From NCBI GenBank assembly GCA_030295235.1, contig AP026147.1, positions 124,001 through 188,000 on the forward strand: a stretch of DNA of 64,000 nt, written 5' to 3'. Within the stretch, counting starts at the first letter, position 1, and every line of letters starts with the position of its first letter. Positions 1-21,081 of this stretch are shown piece by piece. The DNA is from Fistulifera solaris (lineage: Eukaryota > Bacillariophyta > Bacillariophyceae > Naviculales > Stauroneidaceae). The translations under genes and the position numbers were made by a program. The notes beneath the pieces are model-generated. The model had not been told where the DNA came from. It saw nothing but the letters and a program-made list of their open reading frames with translations, and ran no database searches.

Positions 1-341
1 ACGAATTGAGCTTTTGTATACCTGCAATGCACCGAAACAGACACTGAGGTAAGTAAATGCTACATAAGCAACAAAAAGAAGGCCCGCGAGCTTCAAATGG
101 ACCCCGAATCAATATCTCCATGGTGACTTACCTCTCAACAGCGCTTTCTGCGAGCGATAACAAAAATATACTGTATCCAAACATTCTGTATCGTATATCT
201 CGTATCATACATAGAGTGTAGGCACGTAAGTGTCAGTACGAAAGCTACATACGCAAGTCTTGGTACTCAAAATCACGTACAAAATTCTACAGCGTCAATA
301 CATTTTTCACACAATCTTTGCTTTGAAACGCAAATCACACC
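1..341 (+). promoter_or_regulatory. 5' flank of CDC20 copy A
   Basis: This stretch matches, with small indels, the 400-nt intergenic regions upstream of the other two CDC20 copies (12171-12573 and the reverse complement of 19630-20029). Shared blocks include the string around CCATGGTGACTTACCT, the CTGTATCGTAT string and the AT-rich stretch just before the start codon. In the other units this region is a head-to-head promoter shared with an unknown gene. That partner would lie left of the window edge. Confidence 0.7.
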
Positions 342-1960
342 ATGGTGTCTTCTTGCTCTCAAATCAACGCTTTTTCCTCTGATATGCTTTCGCATCATCA
401 CCAATCGACTCCTGATCGTCCCGGTTATCGTGAAATGGCGCAGACTGCCGCGCCTCTCACTCCTCGTACGATCAAAACTCCAGTTCCTCGCATGCGCTCG
501 AGTGCTCATCATCGTCGTCGTTTGTTGACGCCTCAAAGTGGCTTTCGTGAAGATCTGGATCGCTTCATTCCGTCTCGTGGTCGCATGAACATCGACTTGT
601 GTCGTCGAAAGTTGAATTCTGTCTCGAAACCTCGTGAATCGTCAAGTAATTCTTCCTCCGGTCCTCCTTCCGCAGCTCGTTCGACAAAGCTCGCTTACGA
701 GAAGCATTTGCTGAGTACGTTATGCAATGTTTCTGCGAATGATCTTGATGATGAACTGCAATTGAAGTCTATCTTCCAGTACGGTAATGTTTCGTCTTCC
801 GAGATGCACAATCGTCGTCCTATCGTTGCTGCGGACCCTTTCGCGATGGACTTCTTGCGGTCCTCCACGTTGTTAACGGCGGAGAAGGTCAGCGCAACTC
901 CCGCTCGTGTTATCCATTGTCGTCCTGAGGTTGTCCTTGATGCACCGGATATTGTGAATAACTTTTACGCTCATCCGCTCAGCTGGAGCAAGGATAATGT
1001 TCTCGCAATAGCGCTCGGGTCGGTCGTTTACCTCATGAACGTGTCTACCGAAGCAGTGCACGAGCTGGTCGATTTGAAAACGGTGTCTCACAGCCGAAGT
1101 GAGACTTCAAACCACGTTCGGGCAGTGAAGTGGTGCACAGTGAAAGGATTGACACACTACCTAGCTGTGGGAACCGACTCGAGTTCGATTGTACGACACC
1201 ATTTGCAAGAAGGAAGTTCATACTTCTCTCAGAGTTGGAGGAGGTACGGTTCACGCGCTTTCCTGGAATGATGCTATGCAATGGTTGACAGTCGGCGACC
1301 ATACGGGAAAGATTGTGAGCCTTGATTGGCGTAGCCGTTCGATGACAGGAATGACTCGACGCGGACCACCGTCATCGTCAATGTCGTCTTCAGTATGCAA
1401 CCTTGCATGGAATCCTGCAGGCACAAGTCTCAGCGAGTGGACGAGGCGATAACACAGTTCACCTGTGGGATGCTTCTATGATGAGGAGTCTCCAAGTAGG
1501 CGGCGCTCCCCGTCTTGTATTGGAATCGCACACGGCGGCTGTCAAGGGACTGGCTTGGTGTCCCTATCGTAGTGACGTACTTGCCAGTGGGGGCGGAACC
1601 GCAGATCGTTGCATCAAGCTGTGGGATACCTGCTCAGGACGTATGATACACAGTGCCTGTGCTGGAAATCAAGTATCCTCGTTGATCTGGGGCCAGCACC
1701 ACCAGGAGCTTTATTCCGGTCACGGCTTCACGGACAACGAAGTCGTGGTCTGGAGCTACCCTAAGATGCAACGCATTCAGACGTTGTCGTATCACAAAGA
1801 TCGCATCTTGTCAATGGAGTTGAGCCCCGATGGCAACCGGTTGGCATCGATAGGCGCCGATGAGAATTTGTGCCTCTGGAAAATTGATGCCGCTTCACCT
1901 CGTCCTCGTACAGCCGTGTCAGCCTCCCCATCCTTCGGTCCTCAATTCACCATCCGCTGA
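342..1960 (+). pseudogene. CDC20: CDC20-like APC/C activator, copy A, broken by two indels
   Basis: CDC20/Fizzy activates the anaphase-promoting complex and presents substrates through a WD40 propeller. The N-terminus carries a C-box (DRFIPSR), followed by the family's LDAP entry into the propeller and WD40 repeats with WD dipeptides such as HLWDAS and KLWDT. It ends in the Ile-Arg tail used to bind the APC/C. Against copy C there is a net 2-base loss near 1180 (GGC replaced by A) and a 1-base gain near 1430 (an A inside a CTCGCG context). With both undone the length is exactly 540 codons, as in copy C. Neither lesion sits in a homopolymer, so a real pseudogene is plausible. The 5' half resembles copy B and the 3' half resembles copy C. 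Confidence 0.85.
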
Positions 1961-2442
1961 AAGAAGTGTCTATCGTTCATTACGATTTGTTGACGTTTGC
2001 ATATTATGTGCTAGTTATTGTCATTCAAACTCCACTCACACTCAATCGCCATCCAGAAAAGTAGTCTCTAGATTTTACTCCGTATTAATCATCATTGTTT
2101 TGTCTCGAATTGATTTTGGTGTTTCATTAGATGATGGTAGACTACAATTAGATAAAGCACAACGCAGTTACCGCATTGTCTACTATACGAGGATTCGCTT
2201 GTGGCCCGGCAACTCAAGCAATAAGAGAACTAAAATAACCACTCACACCTTGTCTTCTCAGCTTACGTGGCATTCGTCTTCGACCGCACATCATTGACAG
2301 CATCATTGCTAACCTGATAATCGATAAATTCATTCTCAAAGATTCTCCATACATCTTTTTAGTGTTAACGCAATGTGCAATTTACATTTATGAAACATTT
2401 CGCCTCATGTTTCGTCTTAGTGCTCAGAAGACATCGAGCAAT
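1961..2442. other. Convergent intergenic region
   Basis: 482 nt between the 3' ends of CDC20 copy A and the Zn2Cys6 gene. It is AT-rich. I see no conserved ORF, RNA gene or repeat in it. Confidence 0.6.
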
Positions 2443-4811
2443 CTAATTTTGAATGAGACTGCTAATCATTCCGAGCAATGCATCATCATCTAGATCGAAT
2501 TCTGCCCCGATATTGTCGATATCGGTGTCAAGCTCTCCCATCTCGATCGCCTGGGCCTCATGTTGCAACTCAATTTCCATTCTTTTGGTCGCGTCTCTTG
2601 CCCTCTCGGCCGCCACACAAGGGCTACATGCCATTAGAACAAAACCTTGACATCCTCGGCAAGCACACAAGAGAGTCTCACCCAAGTCAACAATAGGTGC
2701 AGAGGCGTCTGTACTGGTTAGATTAGGCCGAGGAATTCCATGGCACCGGAGCTTTACTGGCAACTTTCGTCGATGAATCGTAAGTAATTTACGGATGGCG
2801 ATAAAGGTATCCAACACTTCCTCAAACATAGCAACTTCCATGTCTTCTACTTGGCCCGACTGTTTCATGGCATGCATCGCGTTCAGTAGGTGGCACAGTA
2901 AAATGGTTGCGTTCGTTACCATGTGATACGTGGGACCGGCATGGTGTAACAAGAACGGGTTCGCAACAGCCGTGTTGCAAACAGAAAGTAAACTTTGAAT
3001 TTGGCTGTCGGTAAAACCAGTACCTCCATCTTCGTCGCTGTTTTCCAAGAAAGCATCCATTGCCGAAATTACCATCTGATGCCCCTCACTATGATGCCGC
3101 CCTCTCGTAGATGACTCTTGCTGCTGCATCAAGGTGTACGCAGAAAGAACCATGTTACGGCTGCAAAGTTCATTCTCGTGATGCATGACGGCGGTGGCTG
3201 TCGGGGTGAGGATCGTCGCTTGTGGAATCATGTTGTCCGACTGAGTACCTTCAGATTTCATCATCTGGGCGAAGCGACTATTGGCTTGATCACAACAAGA
3301 ACGAACAGCGCACGCTAAAGCATCTAAAGAACGCGCATGAGGCGGTGCCTCATTGTTAAGATAAACCGGTGGGGCTCCTTGAATCCAGTTTTTGTTCTTG
3401 GGATCAGATACGACGGCTGGTACACTAGTCTTTGTGTTGTATTTCATTTCAATTGGGTTCACCATCCCGTTGCTAGCACATCCAGAAGGCGGAGGCAAGG
3501 TGCGGTCCACATCCGGTACCTTTGATTCATTGCCGTTATAAATCATGTACGCCCAGGCATCTAAATAGGAGATGGCAGATGTCAAAGTTGCTGTTCTGCT
3601 GCTATTCTGTGACGCATCGCCAAGCGTCAGAAAAACTATAACGAATTGCGCACAGTTAAACTCAGTATCAAGCACAACTTACCTCCAGCTTCCCCAAGTA
3701 CGTCATGCAAACCCGACGGTACTTAAAGTAACGAGCCATATCCCCACGACACGCCCGAAAGACTCCCAAAAGGAAGTACGCTTTCGACACCTCCAACATG
3801 ATAGGTGTTTGAACAGGTTCTTTCACAGACTCGCGCAAACAGTGTACCACCGCATTGCATAATTCCATGGCTAGACTAATCTCGTTGTGCACCATGGCCC
3901 CCAAGGCGATTTCGGCAAAGCGCGCCGCTGACAAGGCGGCCAAGTGAGTGCCCGGGATCATGCGAGGCGTCATTCCGGGTATATTCAAGCGCAAGCAGTA
4001 CTCTTCATCGGTCGGTGTTGGAGGCAAACGAAAGAGTTCATCAATGGATAGTTTGAAGTAAGAGAACAAACGCGATCCATCTGGATCGTTCCGATCCAAC
4101 AAATGCGTGTGATCGCTCACGGTGCGAGGAACTCCACCCGGTGCACTCGGAACATCTTCCATCTTCATTCGGCGCGCCGATCGTTCGCTAACTTCCGAAG
4201 TGTCCATCATGTGCGGTTGCTGTTGTTGCTGTTGATGATGCTGCAACGACATCTGCTGCTGTTGTAAAGGCAATTGCTGCTGGAGCTGCATTTGTCTCAT
4301 CAGATTGAACTGATTTAAGATATTGCCATCCAAACCACCCGTGAAGGACGACATGATCGGTTGCTGCTGTTGCGATATGAGGTCTGTATTCCAATCAAAG
4401 TTGCTGCCACCGGTCATGTTGACGTTGTTGTGATGCCCACCGTTCACATCGTTCAAAGAACGTGCTTGAGAAGGAGTACGCCCGGGGACCGGGCCTCGAC
4501 GTTTCGCCGGAGAATAGACGCATTCAAACGCAGCGTCGGGTACACCTTCGACACTATTCAGTGTTTGAATCGCAAGAAAAAGGAAACCGTGAGAATAAGG
4601 AGATAACATTTCGTGTCAAAAGCGGGAAAGATACGCTTCTCAACATGATTCACAATGGCTGTATTTACCTCGTGACTTTGTACTTTTTCATATACTTCGC
4701 CACACAATTCCCACAGGGACGTTTTCCGTCGCATTTCGTTTTACGCGATCGACAGCGATCACAACTCGCGCATAGCTTTTCATCATCTTGCTGCTTGTTA
4801 AGATCGTCCAT
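2443..4811 (-). CDS. Zn2Cys6 (fungal-type) transcription factor, three exons
   Basis: Predicted exons are 4811-4669, 4553-3683 and 3606-2443, giving 725 residues in phase throughout (introns 4554-4668 and 3607-3682). Exon 1 encodes CDRCRSRKTKCDGKRPCGNC, the first five cysteines of a GAL4-type binuclear zinc cluster (C-x2-C-x6-C-x5-C-x2-C). The sixth cysteine is at the start of exon 2 in ECVYSPAKRRGP, a typical Zn2Cys6 ending. The cluster is followed by polyglutamine tracts, a feature of activation domains, and then a long alpha-helical region without a domain I can name. The basic residues between cysteines 2 and 3 fit DNA contact. Zinc-cluster factors are abundant in fungi and sparse in stramenopiles. 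The target genes cannot be inferred here. The linker between cysteines 5 and 6 is longer than in GAL4, so the exon 1/2 junction deserves cDNA support. Confidence 0.82.
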
Positions 4812-5544
4812 GATTCTCAACAATAAGCTTTTGTATCTGTGATTCCTTGTAGCTTCGTATCAGAAGCACGCTTCGACTCTTTAAAGGGATCCAACCACAG
4901 CAATGCTTGCATATAGATCGTTCCGATGCACGTCAATCGTTTGCTGAAACGTACTTTGGTTTGGAATATTCAATATTCAAAATCAAAATAGCGGAGTAAA
5001 TAAAACACCGCAGCAACACTCGTATCCTTGTGACCGGAAAAAGACTGCGAAGGCCATCGATGCTTTTGCCTCTTGCTTCGTCGTGGAAGCGCGTTCCGCG
5101 TTTCCTGCTCGTAGTACTCTATCTATTACAGTGGTAGTGTCGGACTGGCGACGAACAATCAGCGAAAATGAGTTCCGTTTCCGTTTGAAGGTCAACGAAC
5201 AATTTGCAGTACTCTCACAACCATACCCGAAGGATAGTTTCTGTAGTTTCGTTCGTCTTTGTTGCTACTATCCACTGAAAGTTATCTCTTAGTTACAAAT
5301 CGTCTTATGACGTCAAATGACTCGTTGTACTCTCTTTATGACAGTAATGAATTGAGAGGGGGAGTTCTTTTCCCATCACAAGACTTTCGCACTTTTTCGA
5401 CTTCACAAAATTTGTCTGTTGCAACGACGACAAGCAACTTGGCCACCAAAAACGCCGGACTGCTTCTATAAGCGCCCCCTGACCACATAAATGAACCATG
5501 AGTGCGTGAAAAGGCATTTCACCGTCATTCATGCAACATTTAAC
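4812..5544. promoter_or_regulatory. Divergent intergenic region with a CRE palindrome
   Basis: 733 nt between the start of the zinc-cluster factor and the start of the silaffin-like gene. A perfect TGACGTCA palindrome, the core of bZIP/CRE sites, is at 5308-5315, about 230 nt upstream of the silaffin-like start. No convincing ORF is present. Confidence 0.5.
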
Positions 5545-7684
5545 ATGAGATCGCGCCATTGGCTATCTCGCTTGTCGTTCGCCGTACTCTTGGTTCGATC
5601 GACGCGAGCGCAATCCGAAAATGCGACCTGTGTTTGTTCTCCGCGCGTCTACGATATCACGCTCGATTTTTCCAGAACATGCAACGACAATAGTGGATAC
5701 GGCACTGGAGTTCAAGAGACGCGATGTAATATTGTGCCTTTGATGATCCGAGTGACACCGATTTGGTCCCCGAACTGGTCACTCTGATTGATGTGTCGGA
5801 ACTGGGACAGAATTTACAATCTGTGGTAGGTTCACAGCGGCTGACTGGGAAATATGAAAATGGAGCTACCATTACAATATCTTCGGTGAGCGACAAGCAG
5901 GATGACTTGGACATGAACGATCTACCGAAGGCATTTCAGATGAGCATGATCGGTGTGAATGCGAACGGAGGCACTATCGTTTTTTCTGCACTTATTATTT
6001 ACACTGGCAGTTGTGATGATTATCCAGTGCTTCTCTTTGGTACATCGAATGGGTGGGCCTTGCTGGTAAGTACCTGGAATGTTTTGATTTTGGCTTCAAA
6101 AGCACTATTCGCCCTCACGTCACCACATTCAACGCTTTTTAAAAGACGGAGCAAGTGGGCCCTCATGCCGATCTTTGTCCCGCAGCAGACAGTACAGGTT
6201 CGTCGTCACCAGCACCCTCCATTGCTTTGACGTTGCCGCCAGTCTCGGACGCAACCGGCATCCCTACAGTAGCACCGATCGGCAGCCCGTCAGAGACAAC
6301 ATTAACGCCATCGATCGCACCAGCTGTATCAAGAACACCCATTGGAGCTCCGAGTTCTTCCACACCCGTCCCAGATAGTCCCACGCCTATGCCCGTAACG
6401 TCGATGACTTCAGCTCCTACCACTCTAGCGGGTACGTCAATACCAAGCCCACTGTCACAGGAAACGCCAGCTCCTACCACCACATTGGGCACCTTGATTC
6501 CCACGCAGTTGTCACAAGAGACGCCAGCTCCGACCGCCACATCGGGAACGTCGATCCCAACACAGATGTCTCAGAAGACAGCAACTCCTACCACTATAAC
6601 GGGCACTTTGGTGCCTAGCCAACTTTCACAAACAACAAGTAGACCTACGATGGCACGGACACAGATCCCAACAATGGCTCCGGTCAAGGAATCGACGCCG
6701 GGAAAAAAGAAAATGGTATGTACGCATATCAAAAAAGACAGACAAAGCAAGAAAAGCAAGAAAGTCAGCAAGAAAGACAGCAAGAGTGGTAAGGGCGGTA
6801 AAGGCAGTGAAATGAGCGACCACGTTAGCGAGAGCGGTAAAGGAAGTCAAAGTAGCAGTAGCAGTAGCAAGAGCGGCAAAAAAGGCAAAAAGAAAAGAAA
6901 CAAACGGAAAAGGAAGAAAAAGAGCAAAACAAGTGAAATCGAGTGGGGAAATATTTGGTCGAAAAGCGGCAAACGTCGATTACTGAATGAGATGGAGAAA
7001 CGTGAAATTTACTTTCGAGTTCACGGCGATGTATTTCGAGATCGAGTGGTGGATATTTCTACAAACAACTCTACTTCGCTGACTCCTCCAGGCGTCCTCG
7101 AGGAAAAAGAATATGTTGCAATCTACAAAGAAGTCTTCAAAGACGTGGAATGTTATGAGATTGATGTCGAGTCGGATGGATTACCCCCAGCTTTTTCTCC
7201 AGGCGCAGAGATGCCCAGCCCGAAGAAACCCAACTTGTCTTCCAACGCTCCTGTATCACTTTCTCCTATTGCTGCACCGCTACCGACCCTCAATTCGTCT
7301 TCTAGCGCCGCTCCCGCTATCGGGTCTACTGCAGCCCCAACTTTAGCCGTCATGACGACTCCTTCCGCGAGTCCAACCAATGTGACCGACTCTTTCGATA
7401 ATCTCGTGTTAGAGCGCGCCAACATGACGTTGGAGGATCGTTCCAGTATGGTCAACACTACGGGGACCGCAGCGCCTCAGCGTCACCGCACAATACTGAT
7501 TCATGCATGGGTTATCTTGGCTACGTTTGTGGGTGGAACCCTTTTGATGAGTGGGTTACTGATACGATGGTACGGTCCCCGGAAGCCCATGTGGCATATA
7601 CGGATACCGAGTACAGCGAGCGGTAGTGGCAAAGACGAGAGTGTCGAAAGTCGATTGACCGATGACAAACGAATGGGGGTGTAG
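5545..7684 (+). CDS. Secreted/membrane Lys-Ser-rich silaffin-like protein
   Basis: Exons 5545-6065 and 6146-7684 (80-nt intron) encode about 686 residues. The start was chosen because MRSRHWLSRLSFAVLLVRS followed by TRAQ is a clear signal peptide. Next comes a Cys-containing extracellular domain with a C-V-C start. Then there is a Pro/Thr/Ser stretch with about four imperfect repeats of the type GTxIPTQLSQETPAPT. A highly basic block follows (about nt 6720-6990), full of Lys-Ser and Lys-x-x-Lys patterns, for example KDSKSGKGGK. A single transmembrane helix lies near the end (AWVILATFVGGTLLMSGLLI) with a short cytoplasmic tail. Silaffin-type proteins of diatoms use such modified Lys/Ser clusters in silica formation, so a role at the silica deposition vesicle or cell surface is inferred. 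The reading frame needs one extra T at 5739-5741 (T3 read for T4). Confidence 0.7.
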
Positions 7685-7825
7685 ATAGTAGAGGGTATAA
7701 TATAAACAAATAATTAAAGTCATCATTATTAGCAATTGTTTGTTAAAGGACATTTTGCTGCACTGTAATCACGTTTTTAAAAGATCAAGCGAATAAATCA
7801 TTCTTCTCTTTTGCTTCTTTTGGAG

Positions 7826-8722
7826 TTAAAAGATAACCCAGTTGTCCTTGTTGTAGCCGGCTTGCTCCAACGCGGGCAAGCAAGCAAATTTGATCATGGG
7901 TGCTGGACCACACAGGAAGAATTGAGTCTGTGATTTGTTGGTATCCTCAGCAAATACCAAATGCTGTTCTACCATTTCGGGTGTAATAAATCCGGTACTG
8001 TACTTCCACCCCTGTGCCGGTGGACGATCCAACGTATACCACAACGAAAAGTGTTGTGGGAATTGCTGTTGCAAATGCTCCAATTCCTGTCGTACCAAAA
8101 TATCATCTTCCGTTTGATTCGCGTAAATCAGTTTGACTTTCAACGATGGTGTTGGATCAGCAAAAATGGCATGCAAAAGTTGCAGCATGGGAGTAATTCC
8201 CGTCCCTCCGGCCATCATGCCGACATATTGACACGTTCGCTGTTCGAGTGGTTTTCCCAACGGCTTGACGGAGAATTGTCCGGCAGACAACCACTCAATA
8301 TGACCTTTCGGTCCTTTCATGGCAATGGTATCTCCGATCTGCAATGCATCCAAATGCTGCGACAAGGCCCCTCCCGTGGGAAATTTTGGGGGTGCCGGTG
8401 GATAGACTTTGACCACGAGAGAAAATTCACCGGGCACCGATTGTTGCGTCGGCGTATAACTGCGTTGGACCCAGGTTGCGTCGGCTTGTTGAAAGCGCAA
8501 GGCGACGTGTTGGCCGACGGGCAATCCGAGGACAGCATCGGGTCGAGGCAAAGCAAATGTAAAGCGACGTGTATCATGCGATAAAACTTCTTTGCGAATC
8601 AAAGGAACATGTACGAAATCGTCGAGTGGTAATATCTTGGAGGGTCGCCGGACGAGTTGATAGAGATAGACGGAGCTGAGAAGAATGGTTATCGCCACAA
8701 GAATTCCAATCCATGCGGGCAT
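7826..8722 (-). CDS. CYB5R: NADH-cytochrome b5 reductase
   Basis: A 298-residue flavoprotein that passes electrons from NADH to cytochrome b5 for lipid desaturation and related reactions. It starts at the Met before an N-terminal membrane anchor (WIGILVAITILLSSVYLYQL). The FAD-binding motif RSYTP and the GGALSQHL segment come next. The nucleotide-binding motifs GGTGITPM and CGPAPMI follow, and the protein ends in the family's aromatic C-terminus (WVIF). Length and motif order match the roughly 300-residue CYB5R family. The upstream in-frame extension to 9007 lacks family features and was not used. It is divergent from the plastid acyltransferase, another lipid gene, with 517 nt between the starts. 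Confidence 0.93.
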   Translation of the reverse strand: MPAWIGILVAITILLSSVYLYQLVRRPSKILPLDDFVHVPLIRKEVLSHDTRRFTFALPRPDAVLGLPVGQHVALRFQQADATWVQRSYTPTQQSVPGEFSLVVKVYPPAPPKFPTGGALSQHLDALQIGDTIAMKGPKGHIEWLSAGQFSVKPLGKPLEQRTCQYVGMMAGGTGITPMLQLLHAIFADPTPSLKVKLIYANQTEDDILVRQELEHLQQQFPQHFSLWYTLDRPPAQGWKYSTGFITPEMVEQHLVFAEDTNKSQTQFFLCGPAPMIKFACLPALEQAGYNKDNWVIF

Positions 8723-9239
8723 TTTTGTGATAGAATCGATTCGTATAGCGCGCGATAGAAGACAATGTGGCAATTTGCAGCAACTTGATAAAATAGTGAG
8801 AAATGAGCTTGACGTCTCGAAATACTCTCGATCTCCACGCGACGACACTTTTCTTGTCAAGATTTTGCCGATGAAAATGAGGGCAAAAGTGGGACGAATG
8901 ACGTTCGGTCTTCCGACAAACTGACAGACGAATGGTACAGACAGACGTACGGACGTGATTACGTACTTTTGTCTTAGTACTCTTTGATCCATACAGAACA
9001 CAGACACGACATCAACCGCGACACATCGTCCTTTTTTTTGCTTACGTCGTTCGAATGATGGCGTTCATCGACCTTTTTTTTCTTCTTCGTCGTCTTCATT
9101 TTTGTTTTTCTCCTTTCCTTCTATTTTCATTGCGGAGAACAATTTGAAGTTTAAAAACATTAAATTATAGACTAGACAATCTACTTGTCAACGACAGTAT
9201 TCATTCTTTCGCAATAATTTACCCAATAATCTATAAAAA
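8723..9239. promoter_or_regulatory. Divergent promoter region, CYB5R / plastid GPAT
   Basis: 517 nt between two divergent lipid-metabolism genes. It contains T-rich runs around 9030-9120 and an AT-rich stretch just before the GPAT start. I identified no specific site. Confidence 0.4.
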
Positions 9240-10463
9240 ATGACTGCCATTCGCTTCTTGGTCGTCGTCATGACATTCCTATTCCCTTCCGCCTATGCTT
9301 GGGTTCCCTCACGCATGACCACCACTTCCTACCGCATGGCTTCCGTCGAAGAGGATATTTCTACTACTACTAAAACAGCAGAAGAAACATTACTCCCCGA
9401 ATTCGCTCAAGCGCTCGAAATGGCACAAACGAAATTGCTGCAAAGCATTTCTCCCGAAATGAAGACTAAACTATCGTCTTCTTCGATGCTCCCCTTATTG
9501 CAACACTTCTTGCAAGAATACATGACGGCCAGTCAAAAGGCTTTTCTCGATGGACAAACCGAAGTGTGTCATCCGCAACAAGTCGTACAACGCATTTTGA
9601 CCGCCATTCAATACGGCTTTCAGTTTGGGATGGGTCCCAACAAGTACCAATTCGATGTGTCGCATACGGCCTTGCGGGGTACGGAAGAGGGGAATACGGT
9701 AGATTATTACGCATTCGGCTGTGATTTCTTCCGGCCCGTCATGAATTTGAAAAAATCGCAAGTGTTGGGCAAAGACAATCTACAACAAGCCATGGAGCAA
9801 TTGCAACGCGGAGAAAATGTCGTCTTGCTGGCGAATCATCAATCGGAAGCGGATCCACAAGTCGTGTCGGTGTGTTTGGAATTGGCCGGATATGCCCAAC
9901 AAGCGGCCGACATGGTCTATGTGGCGGGACACAAGGTCACGACCGATGCTTTGGCCATTCCCTTTTCCATGGGACGCAATCTCATTTGCATTCATTCCAA
10001 GAAACACATCAATGCCGATGCGGAAACAAAGCCATTGAAACAGAAACAAAACTTGAAAGCCATGAGTGCCATGCTCAAATCCTTCAAGGAAGGAGGAACT
10101 CTGTTATGGGTAGCTCCGTCGGGAGGCCGGGATCGTCGGGACACGGCGACCGGAGCAGTGCCGTGCGCGCCCTTTGATAGTAAAACCATTGATATGTTCC
10201 GCCTCATGGGCAACAAATCGGGTGTACCCACACATTACTATACCTTGGCCATGGTGTCGTACGATTTGTGTCCGCCACCGGATTACGTCGAAGCCGGTAC
10301 GGGGGAACAGCGCAATGTGCGCTATGTGCCCGTCGGCATTCATATGGGGCAAGAACTCGAAAGTGTCGGTGGATTGGAGTCTCGGAAAGACTTTTGTGCG
10401 CATGCCTACGAGCAATGTGTGGCCGATTACGAAACGTTGTTGCAGGCCATGCAAGAAGATTGA
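9240..10463 (+). CDS. Plastid glycerol-3-phosphate acyltransferase (soluble, ATS1-like)
   Basis: A 407-residue protein that transfers an acyl group to sn-1 of glycerol-3-phosphate, the first step of plastid glycerolipid synthesis. The acyltransferase catalytic block appears as NHQSEADP (about residues 199-206), the plant-type variant of NHx4D. The later conserved block WVAPSGGRDRR is also present. The N-terminus is a signal peptide (RFLVVVMTFLFPSAYA) followed by Trp, matching the bipartite plastid-targeting pattern. The N-terminal helical domain and overall length fit the soluble chloroplast GPAT family, not the membrane GPATs. The single-exon frame is intact. Confidence 0.92.
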   Translation: MTAIRFLVVVMTFLFPSAYAWVPSRMTTTSYRMASVEEDISTTTKTAEETLLPEFAQALEMAQTKLLQSISPEMKTKLSSSSMLPLLQHFLQEYMTASQKAFLDGQTEVCHPQQVVQRILTAIQYGFQFGMGPNKYQFDVSHTALRGTEEGNTVDYYAFGCDFFRPVMNLKKSQVLGKDNLQQAMEQLQRGENVVLLANHQSEADPQVVSVCLELAGYAQQAADMVYVAGHKVTTDALAIPFSMGRNLICIHSKKHINADAETKPLKQKQNLKAMSAMLKSFKEGGTLLWVAPSGGRDRRDTATGAVPCAPFDSKTIDMFRLMGNKSGVPTHYYTLAMVSYDLCPPPDYVEAGTGEQRNVRYVPVGIHMGQELESVGGLESRKDFCAHAYEQCVADYETLLQAMQED

Positions 10464-10907: not shown

Positions 10908-12170
10908 CTAGTCAAGAAGTGCGAACAAACTTTCCAGCGAATCGGACCTGAAACGTTTGGATGGACGATGAAGATGACCTTCGCATTCGTTAACGCCGCC
11001 ATTATCCAGTGGCGACAAAAGATCTGCGAATAGTTCATCCTCTTCGAGGTTTGTCATCGACTTTTCGCAAAGGGCATCGTTTTTCTGGATGAAATTTTTA
11101 GCTTGAAGGCTATGAGACGAACTCGAAACTTCCGAACTCAAATCCAAATTCCAGAACCAACGATTCCAAGGAACTGTTTTCAGCTTCAAAGAGATGAGCT
11201 TCCTTTTCGTCTTGTTCCGTGCTATGCGGTTTGAGAGCAGGCTGACCCCGAGTGTCATTTGCAATGAACGCAGCGCCATGAGCGTCGATGTCATCAGCGA
11301 GCTCCGGGACACTGTCCTCGTCCTCATCCTCGTCGATACAAATCACTTCATTGCGGAGCGTCGCAATTCGTCCTCCCAGCTCTGCGGTACAGGCAACTAT
11401 CTGAGATGGCATCACGCCGGTACTCTCGACCAGCTCGTCAATCGCCGCCCAACTAGGAGAGGAACTGTAATCGTTGTTCTTCATCCAATCCACCAGCTTG
11501 TCAATCTGCCATTTCTGGAGATAAGGATCTTGACTACCATTGGCAGCACCAAAAAGTACCGGTATCTGATTAGAAGAGAAATCGCGACGATCACGAGACG
11601 CAAATGCACGGGGTGGTTGCGGATGATCTGCTAAAAAGGAGCCCCCTTCGGAACTTTCCGGCTCTTTTTTGCAGCAGCATCGTCCTCATTCACGACCGAG
11701 TAGGAACGTTTGCGAGACACCAAAGCCGTAGCCGTAGCATCAGCAACTGCTGTAGTTTCAAGTGTGTCAACTGAAGCTGCGGCAGAATTGGTACGCTTAC
11801 CGGTACCGCGGCGACGATCAGAAGGTGCACGTGAAACCGCGACGCCCTGTAGAAAACCGCTCAAATCGCTCCGCTCCTCTCGTAAAATCTTCTCACAATC
11901 GTCTATGAGCGCGTCAGTGATAGGAAATACACCGCGACGGACGCAAGAACGATCCTGACCCTGCAATGACTTCAGTTTCTCGCCAAACGAAAGGACAATC
12001 GTCTCCGTTTCCTCAACAGACAGTCTGCTCGCTGCAAGCCGCTGCTTCGATTTCCAAGAAAGCCCGTGCAATACGCGGAATTCTTCTTTTAATTTCATCA
12101 CTTCACTATCAAAATGAATCAAGGTCAGCATAGCTTCGTGACGAAGCATACAATCTGTGCTTTCTGTCAT
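10908..12170 (-). CDS. Unknown protein, divergent partner of CDC20 (copy B)
   Basis: I do not recognise this family. About 420 residues starting MTESTDCMLRHEAM. There is an N-terminal helical region and a middle part with basic Lys/Arg and Ala/Thr stretches (KKSRK, possibly nuclear). A WMKN...AAIDELVEST block and an acidic run (DEDEDED) follow. The end is a basic-then-hydrophobic tail, KRFRSDSLESLFALLD. Two frame breaks are visible. One is near 11633-11640, where T5 should probably be T6. The other is near 11125, also in a short T run. The same protein is recognisable at 20030-21081 beside another CDC20 copy, in the same head-to-head arrangement, which argues that it is a real gene. Nuclear location is only an inference from composition. 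Confidence 0.65.
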
Positions 12171-12573
12171 GATATAGGTTGTTTTTGTTTTACTTTTGCT
12201 TATTGCTGCGGACGTTCACAATGCAATGAGTTGAGCTTTAAAAAACCTAAAAAGCACCGAAACAGACACCGAGGTAAGTAAACGCTACATAGGTAACAAA
12301 AGAAGGCCCGCAGGCTTCAATTGAAGCCCGAATTGACCCCCATGGTGACTTACCTTTCAACACGGCTATTCGTTCGAAAAGTCAGCGAGCAACAACTAAA
12401 TTATACAGTACCCATACATTCTGTATCGTATCGTATCATACATAGAGTGAAGGCACGTAAGTGTCAGTACGAAAGCTACATACGCAAGTGGTGGTACTCA
12501 AAATCACGTACAAAATTCTACAGCGTCAATACATTTTTTCTTACAATTTTTGCTTTGAACCGCAAATCACACC
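12171..12573. promoter_or_regulatory. Shared divergent promoter of unit B
   Basis: 403 nt separate the two start codons of unit B. The corresponding distance in unit C is 400 nt, and the sequence is recognisably similar in all three units, including the AATCACACCATGG context at the CDC20 start. Conserved spacing and sequence suggest a bidirectional promoter copied with the genes. Confidence 0.65.
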
Positions 12574-14240
12574 ATGGTGTCTTCTTGCTCTCAAATCAAC
12601 GCTTTTTCCTCTGATATGCTTTCGCATCATCACCAATCGACTCCTGATCGTCCCGGTTATCGTGAAATGGCGCAGACTGCCGCGCCTCTCACTCCTCGTA
12701 CGATCAAAACTCCAGTTCCTCGCATGCGCTCGAGTGCTCATCATCGTCGTCGTTTGTTGACGCCTCAAAGTGGCTTTCGTGAAGATCTGGATCGCTTTAT
12801 TCCGTCTCGTGGTCGCATGAACATCGATTTGTGTCGTCGAAAGCTGAATTCTGTCTCGAAACCTCGTGAATCGTCCAGTGTTGCTTCCTCCGGTCCTCCT
12901 TCCGCAGCTCGTTCGACAAAGCTCGCTTACGAGAAGCATTTGCTGAGTACGTTATGCAATGTTTCTGCGAATGATCTTGATGATGAAGTTCAATTGAAGT
13001 CCATGTTTCAGTACAGTAATGTTTCTTCTTCCAAGATGCACAATCGTCGTCCTATCGTTGCTGCGGACCCTTTCGCGATGGACTTGTTGCGCACATCCAG
13101 CTTCGGCGTTGGTAATTTTGACCAAAAAATCGGCGCTGCCCCGAGCAAGCGAACGATAAACTGCTATCCGGAGAAGGCCTTTGCAGCCCCGGGCATTGTG
13201 AACGATTATTACAGCCATCACATCAGCTGGAGCAAGGACAACGTTCTTGCTGTGGCGAAGGCACGTCCGTGTTTCTCATGAACATGTCTAGCGGTGCTGT
13301 GCACGAAGTAAAGGGCGCTGGTATTACGCCCTGTTGACCAGAGAGGCCTTTCAAACCACATCCGTTCCGTGAAATGGTGCACATTCGACGGAAACGCACA
13401 TCACCTTGCTATAGCGACGAGTGTCGGATTTGTTCGAGTGTTCGACACGACGTGCGACAAAGAGGTGGTTCGGACCAACATGGGCTGTCGAAACACTACG
13501 ATGCGCACCGTGTGCTGGAATGATTCTCACAAGTGGTTGACTGCAGGGTACGCAAATGGTAAGATTGGGAATCTGGACTTCCGCAGTGGCTGCGCGACTG
13601 ATTTGACGATGGAACAGTCTGGAGTAGGTTCTGCGTCGTCTGTTTGCAATCTAGCATGGAACAATGACGGCACGTGTCTTGCCAGCGGTCGGAACGACAA
13701 TATGGTACATCTTTGGGATGCATCCATGACGCGGAGCGTGGATTTCGGCCGTGGTCCCCGACAAGTTTTGCAATCGCACACAGGGGCCGTAAAGGGACTG
13801 GCGTGGTGCCCCTATCGACGCGATATGCTCGCCAGTGGCGGAGGGACGGCAGATGGATGTATCAAACTTTGGAATGCGTTCTCGGGAAGTTTGTTGAAGA
13901 GTGTGCCTACCGGAAGTCAAGTATGCTCGTTGATATGGGGTCAGCACCATCAAGAGCTGTATTCCGGTCATGGCTATGCGAATGCAACGAATACCTCAAT
14001 GAACGCCATTGTCGCTTGGAGCTATCCCAAGATGGAGCAGATACAAACTTTGCGTCCTCATAAAAGCCGTATTTTGTCAATGGAAATGAGTCCCGACGGT
14101 ACAAAGCTCGCATCGCTTGGCGCCGATGAAGTGTTGTGCACTTGGAAAGTCGATGCAGTCCCAGATTCCTCTCGGTCGCGTTCTGTTACGGGAGGCTTCC
14201 TTGCTTCCCCTTCGTTTGGTCTCGCTTCTCCATCCGCTAA
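12574..14240 (+). CDS. CDC20: CDC20-like APC/C activator, copy B
   Basis: The N-terminal about 170 residues, including the C-box DRFIPSR, are nearly identical to copies A and C. The WD40 part (from about 13095) has diverged strongly but keeps WD40 hallmarks (HLWDAS, KLWNAF, ASGGGTADGCIKLW). Three single-base problems interrupt it: an A2 run at 13258-13259 that should be A3, a G3 run at 13313-13315 that should be G2, and a missing T after 14220. Correcting all three gives 555 codons ending Ser-Ile-Arg at 14240, restoring the APC/C-binding IR tail. As printed, the frame runs on to 14340 and loses the tail. All three changes are in or next to homopolymers, so sequence error is more likely than decay. 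Confidence 0.82.
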
Positions 14241-14619
14241 GCGCATGGAGCACGCAACTCGTCCATTATCGTATGTATCGTTGCAGTTATTTTCTTTTTC
14301 GTTTCTTTTTAATTTGTGTTGCTACCACGCCTTCCATTAATAATGATTTTAACTGTCGTCGTGAATTAATAAAATAATGCGTTTCTCAAAAATATTTAGA
14401 CTGTAATCTCTATTCTGTACGTGATTTTAGACGAGCTACATGATTAGACAAACGACACATACCAGTAAGAATTATGAGCTTAATAGACCTGTCTGGTTGT
14501 CGCGGTTGCCATACTACAAGCTGATTATTAATTATATAAAGAAAGCGGCCGGCTTACAGTTCGCTTTGAACGAATACAGGTCAATTCTATTAATTATTAC
14601 GTTCGCCACAAATTACTGC
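14241..14619. other. Convergent intergenic region
   Basis: 379 nt, AT-rich, between the end of CDC20 copy B and the end of the plastid HEXXH gene. Nothing else was recognised. Confidence 0.5.
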
Positions 14620-15750
14620 CTAAGAGCTCTCCAGCAGTTCGATACACTCTCGCAGTGAAGCTTTTCGTTCCATCGCTTGGACGATCTTTTCGTACGCCTC
14701 CTTGTTTTGCCGCAACAGCAACCCCGCCGTCAAAGCACCCCACCGCGTCAAATCTTGTTGCGCCACGGCACCCAAAAAGTTCTCCGACCGACGAAAAACC
14801 TGTTGTTCCAGTTGCAACAAATCCTGTGTGGCACTACCGGGAATGACCGAACCAAACGTCAAGGCTTCTCCAAGGACACCCGAAAGTGCTGTTACGGTCA
14901 AGGCAGCGACTTGTGTGGACGTGTATTCCCCTCGCTCCGTTCCCGGAGCCACACTAAATTCGACACACATATCTCCGTCCTCCACACGGTACTCTTGCAC
15001 GGGCAATCCACACCAATACCCACAACAGAAATGAGCCGCTTCGTGTCGCAGCATGCGCTCTTGTGCCGATATAATATTGTCACGATCTCCTCCTTGTCCT
15101 TTGATTGTCTTGATGGCACCGGCAATTGCCGCGGGCGCGGTCGACCCGACGGCCAAGAACAAGACCGGAATCAATGCCACTAAGTAACAGACGGTCGCTC
15201 CCACGTTCGGAGGCAAAAACGCCAAACTAGCAATCCCCGTCAGAGTGCAACCACCCGTCACAAACAGCGTGGCGTATTTAAAATCATCCAAATTGACATC
15301 TTCGTCGGATTCGGCCAATCCCAATTGTGCGGCCGTAATGTTGAGACGCGATTGTAACATGGGTAAACCGACGGGGAATGTTCTTAAGTTTGCCGAACCA
15401 AATTTATCAAAAGTTTGATCTTCCGCAAAGGCTACATCCATGACGGTAGGTTTGGGTGCAATTTTTGGTGCTGCTGGCTTACTGGTTGTGGTCGATTGCC
15501 CCAGTTCCTAAAGAAAATTGAATGGTTCAGTGTACGGAGTATTCAAGCATGTTCTGTCTTCATAAAAGATACGCACCTGACGCAATCGCTCTGCTTCTTG
15601 TCGGGCTTTCGCTGCGGCTTCGCGCAAGGCCTCAATGCTTGGCTCTTGAGACGCCATCGAAAGAACGGATTTCGTCGTTTTCGTCATGGGAACGATGAAA
15701 GCCTCATGGCTTGAAAACAGGAGAGAGAATAGGAAGGCCTGTAGTTTCAT
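14620..15750 (-). CDS. Plastid membrane protein with HEXXH motif (peptidase M41-like)
   Basis: Exons 15750-15577 and 15507-14620 (69-nt intron) give 353 residues. The N-terminus is a signal peptide ending HEA followed by Phe, then a transit-like Ser/Thr stretch, so plastid targeting is likely. A short coiled coil (EALREAAAKARQEAERLRQ) precedes two or three hydrophobic segments at about residues 130-185. They are followed by HEAAHF (about 213-218), the zinc-binding HEXXH of M41-type metallopeptidases. The AAA ATPase domain of FtsH is absent. This architecture matches plant chloroplast FtsH-like proteins that have only the peptidase half. Activity is unproven. The C-terminal helical tail (LTAGLLLRQNKEAYEKIVQAM) also fits that family. 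It is divergent from the MFSD5-like gene. Confidence 0.72.
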
Positions 15751-16154
15751 GATGGCTAAGTTAATGGAAAATAAGATGGCTGCTGAACAGGATGACTCAA
15801 ATGAGTTTTATAGTGTCTCTTTCTTCTTTTTCTTTGCAATGAGATGCATCGGAATGAGAAAATGCGAGAAAACACGTCAAGAAAATCGTCAGTCGTCGCG
15901 CGCAAAACGTGGTCAACTTTACTATGTTGTCGCAACGGGTTCAAAGCCTTATGTAATGCCTTCCTGACGTGTCTCAGTGACGAAAGTCACCGTTGGGGTC
16001 ATTTATGAAAACCGCAGAGACGCCAATGCCGGATTGGCTCGCACAAAATGTCTCTTTATTGACTTTTCTTTTCGACAATACAGAAAAAACCCTGAAGATC
16101 TATCATTGCCATAGTCTCTTTGTGAATGTCCTTTGTTGTTGATCGCTCTTCATC
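15751..16154. promoter_or_regulatory. Divergent promoter region
   Basis: 404 nt between the plastid HEXXH gene and the MFSD5-like transporter. No site was assigned. Confidence 0.4.
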
Positions 16155-17723
16155 ATGACGAATTTCACGCTCATTTTCATAGTTTTTGTTCTGTGGAATG
16201 CGGCGATTACGTTGCGATCGAGCGGTCTCTGGAAAACGAGCACGAGCCTTACTTCGACCGACGCCGCGGAACTCGCGAAATGGAAGACGCTGCTGCGCAA
16301 ATACTTGCCCGTCTATTTGTTAGCGACCTTGTCGGATTGGTTGCAGGGACCGTATGTGTATGCCCTCTATGCCGATTACGGATATTCGCAACACAGTATT
16401 GCCATTCTTTTTGTAGCGGGCTTTGGGTCTTCCATGATTTTCGGGAGTTTCATTGGGGGGATGGCCGATTGGGGTGGTCGCCGAGCCTTTGTCGTCATCT
16501 TTGCACTCGTCTATGCGGCTTCCTGTTTTACCAAGCGTAAGTTGTGTCTGTGTGTGAGAGACTTGGAGAGCCCGACACTGATATTATCATTACAGACTTT
16601 AAAAGCTTTTATATACTCATGTTAGGACGATTGTTGGGAGGTGTCGCCACAAGTTTGCTCTTTTCCGTTTTTGATGCCTGGCTGATTCGTGCGCATAGTG
16701 ATGCACAGCTCAAGCAGTATTTGGGAAAGTCGTTTAGTTGGGCTGTCTTTGGCAACTCGTTGGTGGCCATTATGGCGGGCTTACTGGCCAACAAAGCAGC
16801 TTCGGCAACCATGCCCATGGTTGGATTCCGAGAAGGTGTCTTTATTGGTGGTTACTTGACTCCATTCGACTTAGCGTTGGCTGCTTTGGTCGGCTGTGGC
16901 TTTTTGGCGGCTACGACGTGGGAAGAAAACTATGGCGACACGGATAGTGCCAAGGAAGGTGGAGAAGTCACGGGGAAAGCGCAATGGCACGACGGCTTGA
17001 AGAATGCTCTGACGACTACGATTCGAAGTACCGACATTTTGTTGTGTGGCATCATCAGCAGTCTCTTTGAGGGAAGCATGTATGTAAGTTATTTCGCAAT
17101 AAACAGGCTCGGTGCGAAACCTACGATTGTCACTTAATTTGCTGGCGGACGCATTTTTACAGGTTTTTGTCTTCATGTGGACTCCTGCGTTGACATCCGG
17201 TGATGACGAAGACACGGAATTGCCATTTGGACTCATCTTTAGTACATTCATGGTTTGTTGCATGGCGGGATCGAGCATATACAGTATCTTGAGCGAGAAA
17301 ATCAAAGGAGAACAGCTTGGTGTACTTTGCTTTGCCGTCGCGTCGGTCTCCATGGCACTTGTGGCGATCAGTCCTAGCAACACTTTGAAATTCTTGGCAA
17401 TGAATGTCTTTGAAATGACCGTGGGCATGTATTGGCCCATCATGGGTACCATGAAAGGGTCCATTGTGCCTGAGTCGATGCGGGCGGCGATTTATAACCT
17501 TTACCGCATTCCGCTGAACTTCATTGTCTTATTCAGTCTGTTGACGGATTTGACACCCACAACATCATTTTGCTTGAACGCCACGATGCTGGCGACTGCG
17601 GCAGTTCTACAAATCGTTTTAATGAAACGAAGGGAATTGCATCTGGGTGCCTCACATCAGGCATCACCACAAAGTGAATTAGAGGACGCGCGACCTTTGG
17701 TTGCCAAAGATGAATCGGTTTGA
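16155..17723 (+). CDS. MFSD5: MFSD5-like major facilitator (molybdate-anion transporter type)
   Basis: Exons 16155-16536, 16596-17083 and 17163-17723 (introns 59 and 79 nt, all in phase) encode 476 residues. The protein has about 12 hydrophobic helices. Family signatures are SDWLQGPYVYALY after the first loop, GFGSSMIFGSFIGGMADWGGRR in the MFS loop 2-3 position, LLGGVATSLLFSVFDAW, and EGSMYVFVFMWTPAL in the second half. These match the MFSD5 group, whose algal members transport molybdate. The first N-terminal helix acts as a signal anchor. The tail is short and acidic. Substrate assignment rests on family resemblance only. Confidence 0.85.
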
Positions 17724-18009
17724 TATACCGCATTTTTTTAAAAGCACCGAATAAGCCTATTGTTTTCTTTCATGGAAAATGGAGCACAAAGTATGTCCAG
17801 ATGCCATCATTTCTAAATAGAAAAACTACGGAAGGAACAAAGAACTTAACGACAAATCACATTTTTTTAAGTAAATATTCCGTATAGATTCAAAGCTAGG
17901 ATCATCGAAGCGCAAAAAGACAAAACGAATAGTAACGACAGACGACGAAGACAGTAAAACACGCTCGGAAACAAATAATCATGTAATTGCGAAAAGCAAA
18001 TCGTAATAC

Positions 18010-19629
18010 TCAGCGGATGGTGAAACGAGAACCGAAAGATGGGGAGGCTGACACAGCTGTACGAGGACGAGGTGAAGCGGCATCAATTTTCCAGAGGCAC
18101 AAATTCTCATCGGCGCCTATCGATGCCAACCGGTTGCCATCGGGGCTCAACTCCATTGACAAGATGCGATCTTGGTGATACGACAACGTCTGAATGCGTT
18201 GCATCTTAGGGTAGCTCCAGACCACGACTTCGTTGTCCGTGAAGCCGTGACCGGAATAAAGCTCCTGGTGGTGCTGGCCCCAGATCAACGAAGATACTTG
18301 ATTTCCAGTACAAACACTGTGTATCATACGTCCTGAGCAGGTATCCCACAGCTTGATGCAACGATCTGCGGTTCCGCCCCCACTGGCAAGTACGTCACTA
18401 CGATAGGGACACCAAGCCAGTCCCTTGACAGCCGCCGTGTGCGATTCCAATACAAGACGGGGACCGCCGCCTACTTGGAGACTCCTCATCATAGAAGCAT
18501 CCCACAGGTGAACTGTGTTATCACCTCGTCCACTCGCGAGACTTGTGCCTGCAGGATTCCATGCAAGGTTGCATACTGAAGACGACATTGACGATGACGG
18601 TGGTCCGCGTCGAGTCATTCCTGTCATCGAACGGCTACGCCAATCAAGGCTCACAATCTTTCCCGTATGGTCGCCGACTGTCAGCCATTGCATAGCATCA
18701 TTCCAGGAAAGCGCGTGAACCGTACCTCCTCCAACTCTGAGAGAAGTATGAACTTCCTTCTTGCAAATGGTGTCGTACAATCGAACGCCCGAGTCGGTTC
18801 CCACAGCTAGGTAGTGTGTCAATCCTTTCACTGTGCACCACTTCACTGCCCGAACGTGGTTTGAAGTCTCACTTCGGCTGTGAGACACCGTTTTCAAATC
18901 GACCAGCTCGTGCACTGCTTCGGTAGACACGTTCATGAGGTAAACGACCGACCCGAGCGCTATTGCGAGAACATTATCCTTGCTCCAGCTGAGCGGATGA
19001 GCGTAAAAGTTATTCACAATATCCGGTGCATCAAGGACAACCTCAGGACGACAATGGATAACACGAGCGGGAGTTGCGCTGACCTTCTCCGCCGTTAACA
19101 ACGTGGAGGACCGCAAGAAGTCCATCGCGAAAGGGTCCGCAGCAACGATAGGACGACGATTGTGCATCTTGGAAGAAGAAACATTACCGTACTGGAACAT
19201 GGACTTCAATTGCACTTCATCATCGAGATCACTCGTCGGAACATTGCATAACGTACTCAGCAAATGCTTCTCGTAAGCGAGCTTTGTCGAACGAGCTGCG
19301 GAAGGAGGACCGGAGGAAGCAACACTGGACGATTCACGAGGTTTCGAGACAGAATGCAGCTTTCGACGACACAAGTCGATGTTCATGCGACCATGAGACG
19401 GAATGAAGCGATCCAGATCTTCACGAAAGCCACTTTGAGGCGTCAACAAACGACGACGATGATGAGCACTCGAGCGCATGCGAGGAACTGGAGTTTTGAT
19501 CGTACGAGGGGTGCGAGGCGCGGCAGTCTGCGCCGTTTCACGATAACCGGGACGATCAGGAGTCGATTGGCGATGATACGAAAGCATATCAGAGGATAAA
19601 GCGTTGTTTTGAGAGCAAGAAGACACCAT
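18010..19629 (-). CDS. CDC20: CDC20-like APC/C activator, copy C (uninterrupted)
   Basis: The only copy with an open frame: 539 residues from the ATG at 19629, in the same CACCATGG context as copies A and B. Features in order are a basic N-terminal segment, a C-box at residues 73-79 reading DRFIPSH, the LDAP propeller-entry motif, WD40 repeats and the terminal Ile-Arg. The last C-box position is His here. Copies A and B have the canonical Arg (CGT there, CAT here), and Arg is conserved in known C-boxes, so APC/C binding could be weakened. It is head-to-head with a degenerate copy of the unknown partner gene, 400 nt away. CDC20 acts in the nucleus and cytoplasm at the metaphase-anaphase transition. 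Confidence 0.92.
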   Translation of the reverse strand: MVSSCSQNNALSSDMLSYHRQSTPDRPGYRETAQTAAPRTPRTIKTPVPRMRSSAHHRRRLLTPQSGFREDLDRFIPSHGRMNIDLCRRKLHSVSKPRESSSVASSGPPSAARSTKLAYEKHLLSTLCNVPTSDLDDEVQLKSMFQYGNVSSSKMHNRRPIVAADPFAMDFLRSSTLLTAEKVSATPARVIHCRPEVVLDAPDIVNNFYAHPLSWSKDNVLAIALGSVVYLMNVSTEAVHELVDLKTVSHSRSETSNHVRAVKWCTVKGLTHYLAVGTDSGVRLYDTICKKEVHTSLRVGGGTVHALSWNDAMQWLTVGDHTGKIVSLDWRSRSMTGMTRRGPPSSSMSSSVCNLAWNPAGTSLASGRGDNTVHLWDASMMRSLQVGGGPRLVLESHTAAVKGLAWCPYRSDVLASGGGTADRCIKLWDTCSGRMIHSVCTGNQVSSLIWGQHHQELYSGHGFTDNEVVVWSYPKMQRIQTLSYHQDRILSMELSPDGNRLASIGADENLCLWKIDAASPRPRTAVSASPSFGSRFTIR

Positions 19630-20029
19630 GGTGTGATTTGCGGTATAAAGCCAAAAATTGTGTGAAAATGTATATTGCCGCTGTAGAATTTTGTACGTGA
19701 TTTCGAGTACCAAGACTTGCGTATGTAGCTTTTGTACCTACAGCTACGTGTCGTCGTTCTATGTATGATACGATATATTATACGATACAGAATGTTTGGA
19801 TACAGTATATTTTTGTTATCGCTCGCAGAAAGCGCTGTTGAGAGGTAAGTCACCATGGAGATATCGATTAGGGGTCCATTTCAAGCTCGCGGGCCTTCTT
19901 TTTGTTGCTTATGTAGCATTTACTTACCTCGGTGTCTGTTTCGGTGCATTGCAGGTATACAAAAGCTTAATTCGTGTCAGTGTGAACGTGCGCAGCAAGC
20001 AGCAAAAAACAACAACAACAACAATAAGT
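19630..20029. promoter_or_regulatory. Shared divergent promoter of unit C
   Basis: 400 nt between the CDC20 copy C start and the partner start. It is homologous to the promoter regions of units A and B in inverted orientation. A run of ACA repeats directly precedes the partner start. Confidence 0.6.
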
Positions 20030-21081
20030 ATGACAGAAAGCACAGACTGTATGCTTCGTCACGACGCTATGCCAGCCTTGGTGCAATTAGCTATTGAAGT
20101 GAGTTGTTTTTTACAGAACCTCTCGACTTCACGTGCACCTTCTGATCGTTATTGTCGTCGCATTACCGGTACCGGTACCAATTCTGTCGCAGCTTCAGTG
20201 GGCAAAGTTAAAATTTTAGCATCGCTGATGCTACGACTACGGCTATGGCGGCTCGCAAACTTGTGAATGAGGACGATGCTATTGCAAACGAGAGCCGGAA
20301 AGGTCCGAAGGGAGCTCGTCGTGTCGTAACAAATCATCCGCAGCCATCCTTGCCTGTTCGCGATCGTCGCTATTCTTCTTCGGATCAGATAGCGGTACTT
20401 CCTGGTGCTGCAAATGGTAGAAAGGTTTTGTAGCTGCAAAATGGCAGATTTGAAAAGCTGATGGATTGGATAAATGACTACGATGACAACTCCTCTCCAA
20501 GTTTGGCTGCGATTGATGAGCTGGTCGAGAGTACCGGCATGAAGCCATCTCAGATAGTTGCCTGTACCGTAGAGCTGGTGGACGAATTGCGAAGCTCTAC
20601 AACGTGTGTGTTGATGCTGGAGTTGCCATGGAAGTGATCTGTATTGACGAAGACGAGGACAAGGAGAGTGTCCCGGAGCTCATTGATGGCATTGATGCTT
20701 ATGGCGCTGATCTCATTGCAAATGACAATGCGGGACAGGCCGCTCTGATGATTCAGAACACGGAACAAGAGGAAACGGAAGCTCATCCTTTTGGCGCTGA
20801 AAATAGTTCTTTAGAGTCGTTGGTTGTTAGTTCTGGATTTTTGGATTTGAGTTTGAAAGCTCGAGTTCGTCTCACAGCCTCGAAGCTGGGCAGGCTATTC
20901 AGAACCTAGATGCATGGTGTGAAAAGGCGATGACTGGATTTGAAGAGGATGAGCTTTCGCAGATCTTTCGTCGCCAGTGGATGATGACCGTGTTATATAA
21001 CAAATGCGAAGGTCATCGTAGGTTCCATCCAACCGTGTTAGGTCCGATTTGTTGGAAAGTTTGTTCGCCCTGCTTGACTGA
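20030..21081 (+). pseudogene. Degenerate copy of the unknown CDC20-partner gene (unit C)
   Basis: It starts MTESTDCMLRHDAM, matching the partner in unit B, and the final codons give RSDLLESLFALLD before TGA at 21079-21081. In between it has lost roughly 270 nt relative to copy B (the joint is near 20100). It carries an in-frame TAG near 20431 where copy B has TAT, and it needs several frame changes, at about 20215, 20850 and 20960. The acidic block (DEDEDKESVPELIDGIDAYG) and the AAIDELVESTG block are still readable. The internal deletion and stop make genuine decay more likely than sequencing error. Confidence 0.75.

Follow-up and report, generated by a model that had tools for sequence, protein, structure and literature searches.

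A stretch of 64,000 nt from the diatom Fistulifera solaris (contig AP026147.1, here C34, positions 124001 to 188000; below, the window) holds three genes, A, B and C, of the type of CDC20, a cell-division regulator of which most organisms have few versions. We think it probable that they belong to an expanded, clustered family of CDC20-type coactivators, whose 5' part has been converted to a common sequence, whose WD40 propellers comprise three older types kept under constraint, and whose divergently transcribed neighbor, derived from a homeobox gene, is a passenger or a fading co-regulator. Duplication of CDC20 is in itself ordinary; judging from the sequences compared here, what is unusual is the copy number, the homogenization of one half of the gene, and the tie to a homeobox relic. 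The units, each a CDC20 gene with its partner, are laid out in the window as follows.

1 to 341, no strand: region upstream of A; the homeobox-derived partner A begins outside the window, at C34:123948, on the minus strand
342 to 1960, plus strand: CDC20-A, alpha-type WD40; 96% amino acid identity to C; frameshifts near 1183 and 1432 as assembled
2294 to 19001, no strand: segment between the inverted units A and C, flipped in homoeolog C35 (C35:158310-135769)
10908 to 12170, minus strand: partner B, homeobox-derived gene, in three reading frames as assembled
12171 to 12573, no strand: region between partner B and CDC20-B, 403 nt
12574 to 14240, plus strand: CDC20-B, beta-type WD40; three frameshifts as assembled, near 13257, near 13334, and at the 3' end
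18010 to 19629, minus strand: CDC20-C, alpha-type WD40; single open frame of 539 amino acids; C-box DRFIPSH
19630 to 20029, no strand: region between CDC20-C and partner C, 400 nt
20030 to 21081, plus strand: partner C, homeobox-derived relic with a deletion near its start and broken frames
Homogenized codons 1-150: 342 to 791 in A (plus strand), 12574 to 13023 in B, 19629 to 19180 in C

The genome of F. solaris, which has been described as allodiploid, is assembled into 61 contigs (51.7 Mb) that include homoeologous pairs. The homoeolog of C34 is C35, which bears three counterpart units, A', B', and C', at matching places. Searching the genome with CDC20-C gave at least 35 DNA matches, on C34, C35, C17, C18, C27, and C29, and at least 97 matched protein pieces, other WD40 genes included. 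When neighboring pieces are merged by eye, these lists, which are lower bounds, contain about 30 CDC20-like places, copies or pieces (C34: three; C35: three and one fragment; C17: six; C18: five; C27: six; C29: six). The original prediction, made from the window alone, of a set of three CDC20 units is right in that all three are real, but they are just three of the roughly 30 places in the genome. Outside these places, there are CDC20-type genes at C3:1982363/C4:1920164 (41% identity) and at C3:1138957/C4:1058465 (34-36%), while C40/C41 carry a CDH1-like gene; CDC20 and CDH1 were told apart by inspection, as the three proteins scanned all match the same CDC20/Fizzy domain. In one of these ordinary CDC20-type genes (C4:1056001-1063000), one homoeolog is frameshifted relative to the C3 copy.

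The assignment to CDC20/Fizzy rests on copy C, which matches the Pfam domain WD40_CDC20-Fz (PF24807) at 309.2 bits against a cut-off of 200; the Pfam scan covered this copy, and the remaining ones were assigned by comparison with it. Human CDC20 chains match at an E-value of about 1e-63, ranked below one artificial WD-repeat protein. The C-box motif of these coactivators is DR(F/Y)IPxR; 12 of the 13 copies covered there read DRFIP[SCP]R and copy C reads DRFIPSH. In a frame-aware alignment, all 13 copies with a covered end (two of 15 have no coverage) finish in the C-terminal IR tail.

The mosaic is seen most directly in synonymous divergence (dS). In codons 1-60 and 61-170, dS is 0-0.24 in all 16 pairs from the same chromosome, whatever their WD40 type; beyond codon 170, it is at least about 1.0 between types and 0.01-1.13 inside each. 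Between A and B, it is 0-0.11 in codons 1-170 and then 1.6-2.2, compared with a median of 0.26 for 16 neighboring genes between C34 and C35. Over the first 150 codons or so, the copies on C34 and those on C35 are 89-100% identical, and those on C17 79-100%. The propellers are of three types: alpha (A, C, C35_135769, C35_159124, C17_275414), beta (B, C35_140500, C17_229021, C17_282189), and gamma (C17_240487, C17_264995, C17_289412, with C18_180276 and C18_212240 placed by tree). The short piece C35_127544 reads as alpha, with a within-type dS of 0.01-0.77. Alpha and beta are represented on C34, C35, and C17 alike; gamma copies came only from C17 and C18 (two of the five C18 places were read). 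Four cross-type pairs (C/B, A/B, the C35 pair, and C17 275414/282189) are 89-100% identical in codons 1-150 and 43-56% in codons 181-210, and C17 282189/289412 goes from 89-98% in the front part to 47%. Same-type pairs run more evenly, at 77-96% along the gene for C and its C35 counterpart and at 80-90% for C and C17 275414. Aligning the units of the window, as had been proposed, gave 96.4% identity over 1967 nt for A and C and about 75-76% for B with either; locally, however, over 200-307 and 303-602 of A, identity to B reaches 97-98%.

Trees of the two parts (codons 1-150, 13 copies; codons 195-539, 14 copies; groups chosen after the dS table had been seen) sort the copies differently. The N-terminal data require three changes of chromosome label and six of WD40 type, and the WD40 data five and two, respectively. 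In the N-terminal tree, the C34 copies group together (96/94), as do the C35 copies (86/100). In approximately unbiased tests, a single alpha clade (four copies) is rejected by the N-terminal data, and a single C34 or C17 clade by the WD40 data (p-values of 3e-58 to 5e-84 overall).

The types also seem to differ in the putative degron pockets. Positions are given in human CDC20 numbering (D177, Y185, N329, T377, Q401, R445), with the register taken from the match to the human chain. On this numbering, the equivalents of T377, Q401, and R445 are retained wherever covered. Alpha copies, where covered, carry F at the position of Y185 and G or S at that of N329, the D177 position of beta copies holds A, Q, or N, and gamma copies retain D, Y, and N at D177, Y185, and N329; in C35_135769, D177 has no coverage and the Y185 place is the junction of an inserted element, and in C35_140500 a break falls at the N329 place. 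These type-specific changes would be compatible with different choices of substrate.

Are these copies maintained? The 539 amino acid protein C, the sole uninterrupted CDC20 frame among A, B, and C, served as query for a frameshift-tolerant alignment to 12 further copies or part-copies, which gave 61 frameshifts and one stop in 5733 codons (two C18 copies: 18 frameshifts and zero stops over 1056 codons). As a control, we used 66 comparisons between homoeologs of open reading frames of at least 200 amino acids outside the units, the pair C34/C35 being compared in both directions; frames that had no match or aligned over fewer than 100 codons were left out of the count, and some doubtful ones remained in it. 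The control has 72 frameshifts and 12 stops in 25763 codons, or 0.93 frameshifts per kb. Stops in the 12 copies show no excess over it. Had half the differences between each copy and C been neutral, one would expect some 69 stops (an overcount, as the copies share ancestry); a single one is seen. The ratio dN/dS against copy C is 0.18-0.54, and 0.20-0.27 in nine of the 12 copies, compared with 0.02-0.32 for neighboring genes between C34 and C35 (16 of the 20 C34 control frames). The low dN/dS and near-absence of stops thus indicate that purifying selection has acted on the propellers through most of their history, less strictly than on most of their neighbors. Introns at the breaks were considered and rejected: the junctions of the copies shown have events of 1-2 nt and codon-sized indels, with no intron-sized inserts.

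Several findings weigh against the reading of a maintained, partly converted family. As assembled, 14 of the 15 copies or part-copies are frameshifted, all but C, and the frameshift rate in the 12 copies is 3.8 times that of the control (Fisher test, p-value 2e-13). Some of these frameshifts are shortened homopolymers common to several copies, others are not; the excess could mean recent inactivation, with assembly error as an alternative. The one intact frame, copy C, is the one with the altered C-box. C17_275414 lacks about six propeller codons, and A' is cut in two by a long terminal repeat (LTR) element. The homogenization too has irregularities: the pair C17 229021/240487 is looser (79-93% in codons 1-150, then 44%), the identity of C17 275414/289412 drops only past codon 210, and the same-type pair B/C17_282189 dips to 59% in two windows. 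Finally, the C17 copies are not one clade on the N-terminal data, C17_229021 grouping with the two C18 copies (89/98) and two others having no settled position. From these comparisons, C34, C35, and one C17 pair are clearly homogenized, the rest more loosely.

The strongest alternative is that all copies except perhaps C are dead, their frames recently broken, with the cell served by the ordinary CDC20 and CDH1 genes elsewhere. We consider this unlikely, though a serious competitor. The frameshift excess, the 18 frameshifts in just two C18 copies, the element inside A', the broken partners, the near or complete loss of WD40 sequence in pieces on C27/C29 (see below), and the CDC20-type and CDH1-like genes on C3/C4 and C40/C41 all speak for it. 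The single stop, the dN/dS values, and the C-terminal IR preserved in every covered copy speak against it, and the copies compared on C34, C35, and C17 are at odds with old decay, whereas decay late in their history would be compatible with them. A pseudogene call from frameshifts alone was dropped, given those found in the homoeolog control. Intact gene pairs are not confirmed in the window: CDC20-A has two frameshifts, CDC20-B has three, and partners A, B, and C are all broken.

The partner has a traceable origin. Pieces of partner B match genes on C23/C24 that pass Homeobox_KN (43.7 and 44.6 bits against a cut-off of 24), and the C24 protein matches solved TALE homeodomains. By these matches, the partner evidently derives from a TALE-type homeobox gene. 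Among partners beside CDC20, the B pieces, A, and B' gave no family in the same scan and one C27 copy reached 13.9 bits against 24. Helix 3, examined for its W, N, and R, reads NWTTNVRK in the C23/C24 genes; in B (ACTAELGG), A (VCTVGLGR), B' (TCTSELGG), and one C27 copy (AWIAELGA), N and R are lost. Partner B reads in three frames, partner C is frame-broken and, close to its start, has a deletion of roughly 85 codons, and partner A shows several breaks as well as stops (stops: A, three; B', one; C, one). The C23/C24 homeobox genes themselves switch frame on passing from the N-terminal half into the homeodomain half, and the two homoeologs do so at one position (4646-4772 of locus L027 and the corresponding part of L028, on C24 and C23).

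The original prediction placed the same neighbor head-to-head with CDC20 at B and C, across gaps of 400-403 nt. We find this arrangement as described, and A has such a neighbor too, running leftwards from just outside the window. A duplicated unit of CDC20 and partner, as opposed to a simple tandem array, is supported. It had also been suggested that the two genes form a linked cell-cycle module, in which one promoter would drive both and selection would retain them together. In favor of this, all six C34/C35 units are head-to-head (three of them, C, A', and C', with a truncated partner), as are nine of the ten partner places on C27/C29 (partial matches), the gaps are about 390-540 nt, and the 400 nt upstream of CDC20 are 73-100% identical among units of one contig. 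The tenth place, C29:318681, has no CDC20 among the matches listed, and neither do C23/C24. The proposed genome search for further partners found them on C34/C35 and C27/C29, with relatives on C23/C24; four partner queries found none within 80 kb around the six C17 copies, and the genome search found none on C18. For the partners of A, B, C, and B', dN/dS runs from 0.33 to 1.43 (short alignments), whereas CDC20 gives 0.18-0.54 relative to copy C. Conversely, three C27/C29 pieces tested keep partner sequence beside an N-terminal CDC20 relic with 0-3 stops, past which WD40 sequence amounts to some 41 codons above shuffled controls, in one piece only. Because the partner was not found at the six C17 copies and is truncated or relaxed at units elsewhere, a co-retained module is not supported; we regard it as improbable, and the partner looks like a passenger or a fading co-regulator rather than an obligate half.

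Could the units be misassembled, with collapsed or duplicated haplotypes making one gene seem many? The high indel background of the control frames would allow for it, but the genes between the units have counterparts on C35, where the same three units stand in matching places, and the WD40 types differ by a dS of about 1 or more. An artefact, which the prediction had named as its own refutation, is thus very improbable. C34 110943-122881 and most of 145349-177524 are colinear with C35, and the segment of about 17 kb between them that is bounded by units A and C (C34 126294-143001) lies in the opposite orientation there. As A and C are inverted relative to each other at its two ends, the inversion would fit recombination between them, either order being possible as the ancestral one. 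The LTR element in A' measures 7590 bp (C35:128179-135768), with 518-nt terminal repeats at 99% identity, ends TGACA...TGTCA, and a target duplication CTCAT. A second element lies between CDC20 units near 145.9-151.8 kb of C35, its 392-nt terminal repeats identical; judged by eye from their open reading frames, both are probably of Copia type. In units A-C, inspection of open reading frames and repeats, with no element library searched, showed neither mobile-element ends nor a transposase.

That strong selection on the protein made the N-terminal parts alike is hardly credible even though they hold the C-box, since synonymous sites are alike as well (front dS: 0-0.11 on C34, 0.03-0.16 on C35, and 0-0.24 on C17; 0.08-0.37 between C34 and C35; 0.31-0.96 between C17 and either) and the homogenization extends into upstream DNA: about 500 nt on C35, about 100-150 nt in one C17 pair, and on C34 about 100 nt for A/B and B/C and 400 nt for A/C. 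The inverted pair A/C is homogenized over its whole length. Gene conversion of the 5' part would be the simplest cause.

For the converted family that we favor, the following may be proposed. Copies would have been duplicated, on some chromosomes together with the divergent homeobox-derived gene. Conversion would homogenize the 5' part, that is, the proximal upstream DNA and the N-terminal domain with its C-box, and would end where the WD40 types have become too different for pairing. Less surely, one module for docking on the anaphase-promoting complex/cyclosome (APC/C) might thereby be joined to several substrate receptors, the propellers choosing different degradation targets. A full constant-plus-variable repertoire, in which conversion would maintain one upstream and docking cassette per chromosome and the pocket changes of three long-kept propeller types would direct the APC/C to different, perhaps sexual-stage, substrates, is a speculation that we rate as unlikely.

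Two other features of the window were noted. An inverted repeat of about 325 nt (45233-45557 and 46520-46843) has arms that are 99% identical and about 960 nt apart, and an open reading frame at 6389-7684 encodes Thr/Pro-rich repeats and a Ser/Lys-rich stretch and matches no Pfam family at E 0.05.

Compared with known systems, the genes share with the CDC20/Fizzy coactivators of the APC/C the WD40_CDC20-Fz propeller, a C-box-like motif, and the C-terminal IR; they differ in their roughly 30 clustered places on three contig pairs, homogenized 5' parts, and three propeller types. In protocadherins, gene clusters likewise show conversion limited to part of the gene, one part homogenized and another diversified; here the gene is a cell-cycle substrate receptor. 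The C23/C24 genes resemble TALE/KN homeobox genes (the class of MAT-alpha2, MEIS, and PBX) in the domain and homeodomain matches given above, while the partner copies tested fall below the cut-off and lack N and R of helix 3. CDC20 and CDH1 are described as ancestral genes that were duplicated later in separate lineages, among them flies, fungi, plants, and ciliates, two ciliates having eight and ten Cdh1 copies (PMC3195147). Those expansions of APC/C adaptors in plants and ciliates are alike in producing several paralogous coactivators by lineage-specific duplication; the present ones are mosaic copies of CDC20 type, some of them linked to a homeobox-derived gene, and conversion is unmentioned in the parts of that article consulted. 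Papers on Seminavis and P. tricornutum each name one CDC20 gene in the portions consulted, which is not a count. A term search for CDC20 in the main text of Huysman 2010 gave no occurrence (PMC2872877), and titles and abstract openings of the open-licence literature gave nothing on mosaic CDC20 genes. Literature searches on the pocket residues of Cdc20 likewise yielded no paper.

If F. solaris does carry many CDC20-type receptors under long constraint, with an N-terminal module in common, they would provide a natural test of which propeller residues set the substrate choice of the APC/C. The family also illustrates how homogenization can affect one half of a cell-cycle gene and leave the other diverse, and how inverted copies can lie at the two ends of a segment that is flipped between homoeologs.

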